Shown here: positions 6,008 to 19,305 of the stretch, piece after piece | Position numbering within the stretch: the first letter of the stretch is position 1 | Layout of the letters: every line of letters begins with the position of its first letter | Assembly: GCA_018056425.1 (NCBI GenBank) | Contig: JAGPFR010000017.1 | Coordinates: forward strand, 1 to 47,692 | From: Lachnospiraceae bacterium | Lineage (GTDB): Bacteria > Bacillota > Clostridia > Lachnospirales > Lachnospiraceae | Length of the DNA stretch: 47,692 bases | Reading direction: 5' to 3' | Translations under genes and position numbers: made by a program | The notes under the pieces: model-generated | Database searches by the model: none | Told to the model about the DNA's origin: nothing | What the model saw: the letters and a program-made list of their open reading frames with translations, nothing else

Positions 6008-6751
6008 ATGTCTGAAAGAGACTGTACGAAAGAGATAGCCGAATTAAATGAGATAGTTTCAAAATATGACAATATTGTCTTTTTTGGAGGAGCCGGTGTT
6101 TCCACGGAAAGCGGCATACCGGATTTCAGAAGCGTTGACGGTCTGTATAATCAGAAATATGATTATCCTCCCGAGACGATCCTGTCCCATACTTTCTATG
6201 TAAGGCATACTGCGGAGTTCTATAAATTTTACAGGGATAAGCTGATCGTAAAAGGAGTGCAGCCCAATGCGGCGCACATTAAATTAGCCGAGCTTGAAAA
6301 GGCGGGCAAGGTAAGAGCGGTGATCACTCAGAATATCGACGGTCTTCATCAGGCCGCAGGTTCTAAGACCGTTCTTGAACTTCACGGATCGACCCTCAGG
6401 AATTACTGCATCAAGTGCGGTGAGTTTTATGATATCGATTACATCGCAGATTCCCCGGATCCTGTTCCGAAGTGCTCAAAGTGCGGAGGAGATATCAAGC
6501 CCGATGTCGTACTCTATGAAGAAGGACTCGATATGGATACAATGCAATCCGCAGTGCATTACATTTCGAATGCACAGGTTTTGATAATAGGCGGAACATC
6601 GCTTGCGGTTTATCCTGCGGCAGGGCTGATAGATTATTTCAAGGGTGATAAACTTGTAGTCATCAACATGGCACCTACAGCCAGGGACTCCGGAGCGGAT
6701 CTTGTAATACCCGCGCCGATAGGAAAAGTTTTTTCACAGATCAAGGTCTGA
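6008..6751 (+). CDS. cobB: NAD-dependent protein deacylase, sirtuin family
   Basis: Sirtuins remove acyl groups from lysines, consuming NAD+ and releasing nicotinamide and O-acyl-ADP-ribose. The 247-residue protein has the NAD motif GAGVSTESGIPDFRS, the TQNIDGLHQAAGS segment, the catalytic His in LELHGS, and a four-cysteine zinc site (CIKCG and CSKCGG). The ATG at 6008 is chosen because an aaggagg site stands 5 bases before it; an upstream TTG in frame lies inside the preceding terminator. The SGNH hydrolase gene follows 29 bases on, probably in the same transcript. Confidence 0.95.
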   Translation: MSERDCTKEIAELNEIVSKYDNIVFFGGAGVSTESGIPDFRSVDGLYNQKYDYPPETILSHTFYVRHTAEFYKFYRDKLIVKGVQPNAAHIKLAELEKAGKVRAVITQNIDGLHQAAGSKTVLELHGSTLRNYCIKCGEFYDIDYIADSPDPVPKCSKCGGDIKPDVVLYEEGLDMDTMQSAVHYISNAQVLIIGGTSLAVYPAAGLIDYFKGDKLVVINMAPTARDSGADLVIPAPIGKVFSQIKV

Positions 6752-14865: not shown

Positions 14866-15165
14866 TCATGCTTCCTCGGGCTTTGCGTCTCTTTCGAGGC
14901 GCTCTTTGATGTAGTCCATGAGTTCGTCGATGATGATCCCGTGTACGATGGCTGCCTCCTCAAGGGTTTCCATCATGGCTGCGGGACAGCTTACACAGTG
15001 CATTCCTGCTTCCATGAGGATGGGGATGACTTCGGGTTTCTTGGCCATGATGTCTCCGAGAGTCATGTCGGATCTGATTCCGCAGACTTCTCTTACGGGC
15101 TCGCCATCCATGGAAACGGTGTCTTCTTTTTCCATATCAAGTTTTTCTTTTAATTCGGTATCCAT
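14866..15165 (-). CDS. DUF1858 / redox-disulfide domain protein
   Basis: In this 99-residue protein, residues from about 32 onward form the DUF1858 domain also described as the hybrid-cluster-protein-associated redox disulfide domain. DMTLGDIMAKKPEVIPIL leads to GMHCVSCPAAMMETLEEAA with its CxxC pair. The N-terminal 30 residues are charged and unassigned (one extra Cys in VCGI). A ggag site precedes the ATG. The gene diverges from the pyruvate formate-lyase genes across a 325-base control region, so shared anaerobic or redox control is plausible. The molecular function is unknown. Confidence 0.88.
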   Translation of the reverse strand: MDTELKEKLDMEKEDTVSMDGEPVREVCGIRSDMTLGDIMAKKPEVIPILMEAGMHCVSCPAAMMETLEEAAIVHGIIIDELMDYIKERLERDAKPEEA

Positions 15166-15490: not shown

Positions 15491-17533
15491 ATGGAAAGAC
15501 CTGAATGGCAGGATTTCAAAACAGGTAAGTGGGACAGAGAAGTAAATGTCCGTGACTTCATCCAGAGAAACTATCATCCCTATGACGGAGATGAGAGCTT
15601 CCTTGCAGGACCTACACAGGCTACCAAGGATCTTTGGGCACAGGTTCTCGATCTTCAGAAGAAGGAGAGAGAAGCAGGCGGCGTTCTTGATATGGACACC
15701 AAGGTTGTTTCAACAATCGTTTCACACGGCCCCGGATACCTTGACAAGAGCAAGGAGAAGATCGTCGGATTCCAGACCGACAAGCCTTTCAAGCGTTCAC
15801 TTCAGCCTTGGGGCGGACTCAGAATGGCTGAGAAAGCTTGCCAGGACAACGGATATGAAGTTGATCCCGAGGTTTCCGCTTTCTTCGCAGTAAACCGTAA
15901 GACTCACAACGAGGGATGCTTCGATGCATATACCCCCGAGATGAGAGCTTGCCGTTCTTCACACATCATTACCGGTCTTCCCGATGCATACGGAAGAGGA
16001 CGTATCATCGGTGACTATCGTAGAGTAGCTCTCTATGGTATCGACAGACTTATCGAGGACAAGGAAGAGCAGAAGCTCTCCACCGATTACGTTATGACTG
16101 ATGATGTAATCCGTCTTCGTGAAGAGCTCAGCGAGCAGATCAAGGCTCTTAAGATGATGAAAGAGATGGCTGCATCTTACGGATGCGATATCTCCAAGCC
16201 CGCAGCTAACGTTCAGGAAGCTATCCAGTGGACCTACTTCGGATATCTTTCATCCGTTAAGGAGCAGAACGGTGCAGCTATGTCCCTTGGACGTACTTCC
16301 ACCTTCATCGACATCTATGCAGAGCGTGACCTCGCAAACGGAACCTTCACCGAGGAGCAGATCCAGGAATTCGTAGATCACTTCATCATGAAGCTTCGTT
16401 GCGTAAAGTTCGCTAGAACTCCCGAGTACAACCAGATCTTCGCAGGCGATCCCGTTTGGGTTACCGAGTCTCTCGGCGGCGTAGGCGTTGACGGAAGACA
16501 CATGGTTACCAAGACCTCTTTCCGTTATCTCCACACCCTTGAGAACCTTGGTGCAGCTCCCGAGCCCAACCTTACCGTTCTCTGGTCAACCAGACTTCCT
16601 CAGAACTGGAAGAAGTACTGCGCTAAGATCTCTATCACCACTTCTTCAATCCAGTACGAGAACGACGATCTCATGAGAGTTGTTCACGGTGATGACTATG
16701 GTATCGCTTGCTGCGTATCCTCCATGGTTATCGGTAAAGAGATGCAGTTCTTCGGAGCACGTGCTAACCTTGCTAAGTGTCTCCTTTATGCTCTTAACGG
16801 TGGTATCGATGAAGTTACCAAGAAGCAGGTTGGTCCTAAGTATCGCCCTGTTACCGGTGACGTACTTGACTATGATGATGTTATGGACAAGTTCATCGAC
16901 ATGATGGAGTGGCAGGCTGAGGTATACGTTAACACCCTCAACATCATCCACTACATGCACGACAAGTATTGCTATGAGAGAGCAGAGATGGCTCTTCATG
17001 ACAAGAACGTTAAGAGATATTTCGCAACCGGTATTGCAGGTCTTTCAATCGTTGCTGACTCACTTTCAGCTATCAAGTATGCTAAGGTTGAAGTTATCCG
17101 CGATGAGGACGGTATCATCACCGACTTCAAGACCACCGGTGAGTTCCCTAAGTATGGTAACGACGATGACCGTGTAGACGATATCGCTCAGATGATCGTT
17201 CACAAGTTCATGACCGCTGTACGTCGTCATCACACCTACAGAGATGGTGTTCCTACCACCTCAATCCTTACCATCACTTCAAACGTTACCTATGGTAAGG
17301 CAACCGGAAACACTCCTGACGGACGTAAGAAGGGAATGCCTTTCGCTCCCGGAGCCAACCCTATGCATGGTCGTGATACTCACGGTGCTGTCGCTTCACT
17401 TTCTTCCGTATCCAAGCTTCCTTTCAATGATGCTCAGGACGGAATCTCCAATACCTTCACCATCATCCCCGGTGCGCTCGGAAAGGATGACAAGGTATTT
17501 GCCGGCGACATCGATCTTGACCTCAGCAAGTAA
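15491..17533 (+). CDS. pflB: Pyruvate formate-lyase core without glycyl-radical domain
   Basis: PFL converts pyruvate and CoA to acetyl-CoA and formate in anaerobic fermentation. The 680-residue protein aligns with the family from its start and holds the catalytic cysteine pair in GIACCVSSM (C407/C408). The last recognisable family segment is [18 protein letters not shown], followed by a short acidic end and a genuine TAA. The usual last ~80 residues, with the RVSGYAV glycyl-radical loop, are missing; family members are about 740-760 long. That domain is encoded separately at 17859-18104. The two are not joined by a simple frameshift, since 325 bases and another gene lie between. aggagg precedes the ATG. 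Codon use is strongly biased, as expected for high expression. Confidence 0.96.
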
Positions 17534-17555
17534 TCAAATGCTTCGAAGCTCCGAA

Positions 17556-17586
17556 GGCCACGTACCGGGTTCCCGGTACCTTGGCC
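17556..17586 (+). promoter_or_regulatory. Strong intercistronic hairpin behind pflB
   Basis: ggcca pairs with tggcc outside, and gtaccgg with ccggtac inside, around a gttc loop. There is no T-run, so it is not a classic terminator. In this 95-base gap it could protect the pflB mRNA end or mark a processing point that sets the ratio of core to small subunits. Confidence 0.6.
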
Positions 17587-17628
17587 GGAAGGGCCGGATA
17601 TAAATAAATAAACGGAAAGGATACCACT

Positions 17629-17832
17629 ATGGATCAGAAAGACATGATAGATGATCTTGTAAAGATGCTCGATGATGGATTCGCAAACGGCACCGGACAT
17701 GTCAATGTAGACACGTCGGAAGATCAGTCAGATGTTAAGGATGTTACGACCATGGGTTGCACGGATTGTTCCAGAACCCCGTTGGCTTGCAGCGTTCCTA
17801 CACTCCATCAGGGTATCGACGATTATCAGTAA
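17629..17832 (+). CDS. Small protein resembling half of a glycyl-radical domain, with cysteine tail
   Basis: The product has 67 residues. Residues 10-28 ([19 protein letters not shown]) align with the opening of the neighbouring radical-domain protein ([19 protein letters not shown]), allowing one gap. The RVSGYAV loop and the C-terminal helix are absent; instead there is a tail with C44, C47 and C54 (GCTDC, PLACS). It has its own ribosome site (acggaaagg), no signal peptide and no membrane segment. It sits between the enzyme core and its radical domain, 26 bases before the latter. It may occupy the same pocket on the core as a chaperone, inhibitor or redox sensor; that is inference. No established family is recognised. 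Confidence 0.85.
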
Positions 17833-17858
17833 ACAAATCTTACCAGGAGGAAAAAATC

Positions 17859-18104
17859 ATGGCAGAAGCATCTACCGCACAGGTTAGTAACCTTGTGAAT
17901 CTTCTCGATGGTTATGCTACCAAGGGTGGTCACCATCTTAATGTAAACGTTCTCAACAGAGAAACTCTTCTCGATGCTCAGCAGCATCCCGAGAATTATC
18001 CCCAGCTCACTATCCGCGTATCCGGATATGCAGTAAACTTCATTAAGCTTACTCCCGAGCAGCAGGCAGACGTTATCTCTCGTACTTTCCACGAGTCTTT
18101 CTGA
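17859..18104 (+). CDS. grcA: Free-standing glycyl-radical domain of pyruvate formate-lyase (GrcA/YfiD-like)
   Basis: This 81-residue protein matches the C-terminal domain of [23 protein letters not shown], then [10 protein letters not shown] with radical glycine G56, then [15 protein letters not shown]. coli YfiD is a similar spare part that replaces an oxygen-broken radical domain, but there the main enzyme keeps its own. Here the core at 15491-17533 has none, so this protein should be an obligatory subunit. The start at 17859 follows an aggagg site 9 bases upstream; a longer in-frame reading from 17757 overlaps the preceding gene and is rejected. A strong terminator follows. Confidence 0.95.
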
Positions 18105-18160
18105 TGCAACGGGGAAGCAATCATCGGCCGTTCACGCTTGCGTGAAAAAGACAATAAGAA

Positions 18161-18191
18161 GGGCTGTCGCAAATGCGGCAGCCCTTTTTTT
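18161..18191 (+). terminator. Rho-independent terminator of the pfl operon
   Basis: A ten-pair stem, gggctgtcgc with gcggcagccc, is followed by seven Ts. It separates the enzyme genes from pflA. Confidence 0.93.
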
Positions 18192-19134: not shown

Positions 19135-19305
19135 ATGGCTTATCAGATTGGCGAAGGATGCATTTGCTGTGGCGGATGTGAAGCAGCTTGTCCTGTAGGC
19201 GCTATCTCCATGGGAGACGGCAAGTATGAGATCGATAAAGAGAAGTGCATTGATTGCGGTTCTTGCGCAGGTCAGTGCCCCGTAGGCGCTATCGAGCAGG
19301 CTTAA
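19135..19305 (+). CDS. 2[4Fe-4S] ferredoxin
   Basis: This 56-residue clostridial-type ferredoxin is a small soluble electron carrier. Two CxxCxxCxxxCP motifs are present: C9/C12/C15/C19 and C38/C41/C44/C48. An extra cysteine, C11, stands inside the first motif. taaggagg lies 8 bases before the ATG. It is transcribed alone from its own promoter and closed by a bidirectional terminator. Its place beside pflA suggests it could supply electrons to the activase, but clostridial ferredoxins serve many enzymes. Confidence 0.96.
   Translation: MAYQIGEGCICCGGCEAACPVGAISMGDGKYEIDKEKCIDCGSCAGQCPVGAIEQA

Follow-up and report, generated by a model that had tools for sequence, protein, structure and literature searches.

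The 47,692-nucleotide stretch of DNA analyzed here, called the window below, is contig JAGPFR010000017.1 of the Lachnospiraceae bacterium assembly GCA_018056425.1. It carries a locus in which pyruvate formate-lyase (PFL) is encoded in separate pieces. PFL is central to anaerobic sugar fermentation and is the textbook case of a radical enzyme killed by oxygen. The locus encodes a catalytic core, a small protein that we call the third protein, a stand-alone glycyl radical subunit and the activating enzyme PflA (Table 1).

An earlier reading of this DNA (the original prediction) described a 680-residue core with cysteines 407 and 408. This was right: the open reading frame (ORF) is present and contains the motif IACCVSS. 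Residues 6-669 of the core match positions 2-665 of the 744 positions of TIGR01255 (1091.3 bits, cut-off 994.2). The match stops at position 665, and no C-terminal glycyl radical domain is found in the same chain. The radical protein matches positions 663-743 of the same model. When both are aligned with E. coli PFL (1h16), the core covers residues 10-681 and the radical protein covers 681-758, which places the split at a domain border, as had been proposed. The radical domain is indeed a gene of its own, with a ribosome site (AGGAGG, 8 nt before the ATG) and the motif RVSGYAV. The protein resembles the NCBI family GrcA3 (NF038360) over positions 2-77 of 78, yet scores 157.8 bits against a cut-off of 158 (156.7 bits in the genome search). 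Because it falls 0.2 bits short, we call it GrcA3-like. A PF01228 match covers positions 50-106. The match to the GrcA/YfiD model TIGR04365 is below cut-off (101.2 versus 170 bits) and spans model positions 65-125 only.

The core and radical ORFs lie in different frames, 325 bp apart, and the arrangement recurs in 112 loci; the split is not a frameshift, in agreement with the original prediction. A frameshift or an assembly error is ruled out by these 112 loci with a core and a radical gene, plus five outside the family. We also reject a sequencing artefact, because at least 114 of 299 family genomes carry a stand-alone radical gene.

Table 1. Features of the split PFL locus, in window coordinates. 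SD, Shine-Dalgarno sequence.
Feature	Position	Strand	Evidence or remarks
PFL catalytic core, 680 residues, Cys407/Cys408, without radical domain	15491..17533	+	TIGR01255 match; alignment to E. coli PFL
C-terminal extension of the core, where a full-length PFL would enter the radical domain	17495..17530	+	Loose pattern over split cores
Structured RNA element, 3' of the core and 5' of the third gene: CTCYGAAGGCYACG, a hairpin of variable length, CCTTGGCCGGARGRG	17544..17597	+	Pattern match, close relatives
Third gene, 67-residue protein: radical-domain-like N-terminal half and cysteine tail	17629..17832	+	SD GGAAAGGA at 17614-17621
Glycyl radical subunit, GrcA3-like, 81 residues, RVSGYAV	17859..18104	+	NF038360, PF01228; SD AGGAGG at 17845-17850
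Intrinsic terminator, 3' of the radical gene	about 18157..18191	+	G+C-rich hairpin, then seven T
PflA, PFL-activating radical S-adenosylmethionine (SAM) enzyme, 260 residues	18246..19028	+	TIGR02493, 288.6 bits (cut-off 231.75)

Distribution of the split among related genomes

A search of the 299 family genomes with the GrcA3 profile, in which open frames shorter than 250 residues were taken as stand-alone, identified at least 135 stand-alone radical proteins in at least 114 genomes (both lower bounds; list floor 131.7 bits). Survey of related genomes, suggested in the original prediction, therefore finds the same split, which is not peculiar to the genome of the window. Fused frames of about 750 residues also matched the profile and were counted apart from the 135. 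NF038360 is above its cut-off in 100 of the 299 genomes, in a few of them in fused frames. The signature R[VI]SGYAV is present in 134 of the 135 stand-alone proteins, the exception being L183, which the pattern does not match.

We fetched 134 stand-alone loci and added that of the window. An upstream core lies on the same fragment in 112 of them, 20 are unlinked copies, and contig ends truncate another 3 (L154, L173, L198). The cysteine loop I[AS]CCVS is conserved in 111 of the 112 split cores. A pattern for the C-terminal extension of the core matches 91 of the 112 and not one of the 30 full-length PFLs retrieved (19 checked by script, 11 by reading their ends); this pattern is loose and was composed after the tails had been inspected. 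Split PFLs also occur outside the family: with a third gene in the order (L343) and in the class (L344, L345, L346), and as a tail-bearing core in L348. In L344 (genome G445), the gene order is core, GrcA3, third gene, the last two being swapped.

The original prediction held that the separate subunit is the sole source of the radical. In the genome of the window, PF02901 matches this core only, and no intact PFL that could serve as main enzyme was found elsewhere in the assembly (84 contigs, 90.8% complete, so that a gap is possible). PF01228 matches only the core and radical ORFs of the locus and one 758-residue frame on contig C16. The latter has no PF02901 match and is presumably NrdD. Among the TIGR01255 matches listed, ordered by score, a full-length PFL was found in 6 of the 114 split genomes (G284, G132, G265, G085, G296, G119) and not in the other 108. 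The other matches listed in these 108 are pieces of split genes or score below 200 bits; five of the genomes (G022, G060, G128, G129, G187) have no core other than broken ones at contig ends. These sequence searches support the view that the separate subunit is the only PFL radical source to be found in the genome of the window and in 108 of the 114 split genomes. The detached piece is, as far as such matches tell, the sole PFL radical found in most genomes with the split.

Twenty genomes contain a further radical gene that is unlinked to a core, and all 20 also have a split locus. After a Pfam check of five neighbours, some of these genes proved to lie near genes for a Crp-type regulator (L105, L167), rubrerythrin (L178, L194) or desulfoferrodoxin (L185); the neighbours of other copies look unrelated. 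The unlinked copies and their neighbours lend indirect support to the idea that the radical subunit may be a replaceable part.

GrcA3-like frames are also found on 14 IMG/VR contigs labelled viral (L315-L328), 12 of them stand-alone. In L317 it has NrdD on one side and an NrdG-like radical-SAM gene on the other. L320, taken from a 110-kb contig, carries a split core together with a radical gene; a fused PFL is present in L323 and L325, and an internal stop interrupts the core of L321 and of L328. In INPHARED, the radical protein has matches in 1,539 of 50,697 phage records, whose names point mostly to phages of Enterobacteriaceae. A phage-borne spare part is known from T4.

The third protein and the cysteine tail of the core

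A gene of the third kind is found in 71 of the 112 split loci, the genes being adjacent (68 called by a pattern script; L137, L141 and L146 added after inspection). The usual tail of the encoded protein reads C-x(n)-AC-x-[VI]-P-T-L-x-x-G-x-D. In an alignment of 34 of 70 third proteins (A1), G23, C47, A53, C54 and P57 are invariant, and D15, H24, N26, T58, L59, G62 and D64 are nearly so. The protein of the window has three cysteines, two of them conserved. Compared with a copy from the same genus, the ratio of nonsynonymous to synonymous substitutions (dN/dS) of the third gene is 0.057. Two further copies of the same length, laid side by side unaligned, gave 0.15 and 0.13. A median of 0.52 was obtained from 20 usable pairs of 13 same-length third proteins, also unaligned; at face value it speaks against strong constraint, and it was not used.

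Strong matches to the third protein (E < 1e-10) were counted by eye in 77 of the 299 genomes, namely 76 of the split set and G006, which is 67% complete and in which no PFL was found. In G012 and G026, the matches cover the first 50-54 positions only. A scan of named genomes gave 390 relatives. Among the best 80 of these 390 loci, a GrcA3-like frame is present in all 80 and a core, whole or cut, in 79. The nearest named relatives are from Lachnospiraceae bacterium P6A3 and from metagenome-assembled genomes of the family, many of rumen origin. No family corresponds to the third protein in Pfam, NCBIfam or PHROGs, and the protein is absent from the plasmid collection searched.

The best partial NCBIfam matches of the third protein are to the N-terminal part of GrcA3. 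Comparison of profiles with hhalign aligned the third protein with GrcA3 over the first 35 columns (96.9%, E 1.6e-10). In the genome searches, positions about 3-32 of the third-protein profile also matched the starts of GrcA frames and the inside of frames of about 750 residues, both with E from 1e-6 to 1e-3; the latter frames in G252, G175 and G257 are PFLs. This stretch contains a GH.NV segment, which corresponds to the GGQHLNVNV stretch of E. coli PFL and YfiD. The equivalent strand of PFL is beta-10 in the passages of PMC8683613 that describe it. As this N-terminal arm aligns with the beginning of the radical domain, the whole protein resembles that domain's docking half, continued by a cysteine tail where the glycyl loop would be expected. 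A second family of small proteins has a similar N-terminal arm and a tail like YHHGRCDVGSPWAKG (L329, at about 6333-6443 of G000:C10 in the genome of the window; L330-L332; L338-L342). Its gene contexts are scattered, and the three members scanned have no Pfam or NCBIfam match above cut-off.

In 36 of the 112 split loci, the end of the core itself carries at least two cysteines, in 32 of them with C-x(0-2)-P. Examples are CGNMACNIPNIEESIDRE and DCACCEPN. MAFFT placed the core tails that were inspected in its alignment on the tail of the third protein. The separate gene and the core tail are mutually exclusive: 71 loci have the former, 36 the latter, none both and five neither (Fisher p 2.7e-24). 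When third genes located elsewhere in the genome are included, a third module, either separate protein or core tail, accompanies 111 of the 112 loci. The original picture of an enzyme in pieces therefore holds for the core and the radical subunit, but not for the count of two parts; it did not include the third ORF, the spacer RNA or the terminator. At the split loci of G297 and G282, which have their third gene elsewhere, pflA lies between the core and the radical gene; their third genes (L333 and L334) are found next to or close to genes that presumably encode glutamate 5-kinase and the following enzyme of proline synthesis.

A quick tree of 126 cores (LG+G4, 126 rows, 45 of 123 inner branches open) has a starred branch that separates the split cores and seven full-length PFLs from the other rows. 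A motif filter had left out 12 of the 30 distinct full-length PFLs as well as short cores. By parsimony on this tree, the three-gene and tail-bearing forms interchange at least 11 times; the starred branches by themselves, before L141 was relabelled, require the three-gene label to change 8 times and the tail label 6 times. Six of the seven nested full-length PFLs have no cysteine tail. In the seventh (L029/L200, genome G096), a linker rich in cysteines, TCGCEEVTCAV, precedes the radical domain, as though a core with a tail had been joined to such a domain again. This enzyme, a member of the split clade, is also the only one of the 30 fetched full-length PFLs with at least two cysteines before the radical loop. 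We read all seven as probable re-fusions; the tree leaves the direction unproven.

Possible role of the third protein

The biochemistry of E. coli PFL provides a framework for this arrangement. Passages of PMC8683613 describe how YfiD replaces the radical domain of PFL cleaved by O2. Residues 696-733 of PFL, including beta-10, remain after the cleavage and matter for the binding of YfiD and for activation, and YfiD's own copy of the strand takes the place of beta-10. PFL truncated before residue 696 is poorly activated or rescued by YfiD, yet has wild-type activity once activated (PMC8683613, same passages). Since it ends at the equivalent of residue 681, the split core resembles this poorly activated form. 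The GrcA3-like protein, for its part, is devoid of the N-terminal half that assists YfiD in binding. A third protein with a thiol tail that restores a 696-733-like stretch would fit the gap.

We propose a three-part PFL made of the core, the GrcA3-like radical subunit and a third protein that would dock a thiol tail onto cores without radical subunit. We give this reading a probability of about 0.45, slightly below even odds. The core provides the catalytic cysteines. The GrcA3-like subunit would contribute the glycyl loop, on which PflA would generate the radical, and the barrel strand that the core lacks. These two parts follow from the sequences and from what is known of PFL and YfiD biochemistry. 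In the third protein, the cysteine tail would be mounted on an arm for docking that stems from the radical domain and consists of a helix and the GH.NV stretch that matches beta-10. On core protomers without GrcA3, the arm would occupy the seat of the radical domain. The cysteine of the AC.VP part and the second cysteine would then lie at the position of the glycyl loop, and the tail would cover the exposed active site, or quench it, until displaced by GrcA3. The sequences show the anatomy, the homology of the arm, its conservation and the mutual exclusion of the two forms; the docking site, the competition with GrcA3 and the thiol chemistry are what we infer. In sister lineages, such a tail is joined to the C-terminus of the core, so that an arm would not be needed. 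As the two forms have the tail and not the arm in common, the tail is likely the working part and the arm a tether. In another glycyl radical enzyme (GRE), BSS-beta was proposed to gate the movement of the radical domain (part of PMC12358834).

Several observations weigh against this proposal. The core-fused form has the tail and no arm, so that holding the place of the strand cannot be the whole function. Two third proteins (L075 and L114) stop short of the AC.VP part, and 4 of the 36 core tails (L087, L107, L126, L138) have at least two cysteines without a Cys-Pro context. Among the five loci with neither gene nor tail, those of G002, G282 and G297 have their third gene elsewhere in the genome, away from the core. 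G130 has a divergent copy, also away from the core (E 3e-6), and in G288 neither a third gene, by genome search, nor a core tail was found. Structure prediction points the same way. An AlphaFold2 model of core and third protein, made from an in-frame read-through of L147 with a 106-row alignment, has a well-predicted core, with values above 85 for most blocks as far as residue 590; the helix of the third protein reaches about 75 at best, its strand and tail are below 50 and it is not docked. The alignment used (A4) has the arm misplaced in 3 of 13 joined rows (L098, L116, L071); another (A3) was discarded because its short rows were scattered over the core. An earlier model was poor overall (predicted local distance difference test score 71.6). 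A fold search with the model returned known PFL/GRE and anaerobic ribonucleotide reductase folds, with alignments that stop at or before residue 688, that is, within the core part; 38la and 38lb, the solved chains closest to the core, were not among these matches. A PDB search with a composite of the tail motifs gave no match.

Among other explanations, the one that survives best, though we consider it doubtful, assigns the cysteine tail a role as redox switch or sacrificial hydrogen atom donor. Upon oxidation it would form a disulfide or quench the radical and so free GrcA3 under air, the arm serving only to deliver the tail. The two conserved cysteines with variable spacing are consistent with this idea, as are the association of the tail with a detachable radical part, seen in the rarity of such cysteines in full-length PFLs (1 of 30, L029 of the split clade), and the O2-defence genes near some unlinked GrcA3 copies. 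Redox activity, however, cannot be read from sequence alone, and the CACC spacing in some core tails is far from the C-x6-C of the third protein.

A half-of-sites arrangement, in which one protomer of each core dimer carries GrcA3 and the other the third protein as a permanent dummy (core2-GrcA3-dummy), appears unlikely. A hypothetical half-site reactivity is described for PFL in part of PMC12338860, the third protein has the docking half of the radical domain without the glycyl loop, and the genes adjoin in 71 of the 112 loci. But a tail fused to the core would sit on both protomers, and the third gene is unlinked in four genomes. Less probable still is an accessory subunit that would assist folding or solubility and might bind metal, comparable to HPAD-gamma or BSS-gamma. 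Small Fe- or FeS-binding subunits are known in multisubunit GREs (part of PMC12358834), but the window protein has three cysteines, two of them conserved, as opposed to the [4Fe-4S] subunits similar to high-potential iron-sulfur proteins (HiPIP), no Pfam or NCBIfam match to the HiPIP-like family was found, and the third protein is homologous to the radical domain instead. Finally, the second half of the third protein is no longer GrcA3-like, no family model exists for it and 2 of 71 in-locus copies end early, but a decaying duplicate or a chance ORF is ruled out for practical purposes by the dN/dS of 0.057, by the glycine, two cysteines, alanine and proline that are invariant over 34 rows, and by the spread to 77 of 299 genomes and beyond the family, frame disruptions not having been seen in relatives.

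The three-part reading may be extended, more tentatively, to PFL of Lachnospiraceae as a cassette enzyme. The core would be permanent, the GrcA3-like subunit a disposable cartridge with unlinked spares, and the third protein a thiol-tailed dummy cartridge that keeps the seat occupied and guards the active site during exchange after oxygen damage. If this holds, the spare-part idea of E. coli would be the normal working state in a major gut and rumen family. It would also raise concrete questions: how many radicals a dimer carries, how the radical part is exchanged and whether the arrangement helps strict anaerobes to survive brief exposure to air.

Neighbouring elements and known systems

The spacer between core and third gene contains an RNA element (CTCYGAAGGCYACG, a hairpin of variable length, CCTTGGCCGGARGRG) with conserved unpaired bases, shared by the window and 10 close relatives (L235-L244); its model was built from 8 of these 11 sequences. 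The pattern has a single match in the genome of the window. With strict filters it was found in 2 of the 299 family genomes, both of the same genus, and in none of 14 other sources searched. Rfam has no match in this region. In 14 of 20 third-gene loci with long spacers, a hairpin reaches z <= -3.5 against plain shuffles. Just 3' of pflA, at 19135-19305, lies a gene for a 56-residue two-cluster ferredoxin (NF058577), a possible electron donor. Upstream of the core, on the minus strand (14866-15165), a protein with a DUF1858 / hybrid-cluster-protein-associated redox disulfide domain is encoded.

The split itself is not wholly new, since the NCBI model for GrcA3 and the PDB entries 38la and 38lb exist. 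These two chains, named 'Formate acetyltransferase' in the 2026 PDB, come closest to the core among solved structures (1100 and 1151 bits). They appear to lack the radical domain, because neither is among 34 PDB matches to that domain; they could be natural split cores or constructs. For the GrcA3-like protein, the PDB search gave nothing closer than YfiD (6owr). The open-licence literature searched yielded no paper about a split PFL or GrcA3. The third module appears to be undescribed within the literature and the family libraries searched. The third protein represents a small family outside all these libraries, with an almost obligatory link to the split.

Two known systems invite comparison. 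YfiD, with 127 residues and a disordered N-terminal half, is the spare for O2-cleaved PFL in E. coli (part of PMC8683613). The system encoded here differs from PflB and YfiD/GrcA of E. coli in three ways: its stand-alone piece has 81 residues and no such N-terminal half, its core is always made without a radical domain, and it includes a third module. X-succinate synthases and 4-hydroxyphenylacetate decarboxylase have subunits (BSS-beta/gamma, MASS-beta/delta, HPAD-gamma) whose HiPIP- or rubredoxin-like folds carry [4Fe-4S] or Fe (part of PMC12358834). For some of these subunits a role in gating the radical domain was proposed, and, like them, the third protein is a small, extra component beside a GRE. 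Unlike these iron binders, it derives from the radical domain itself.

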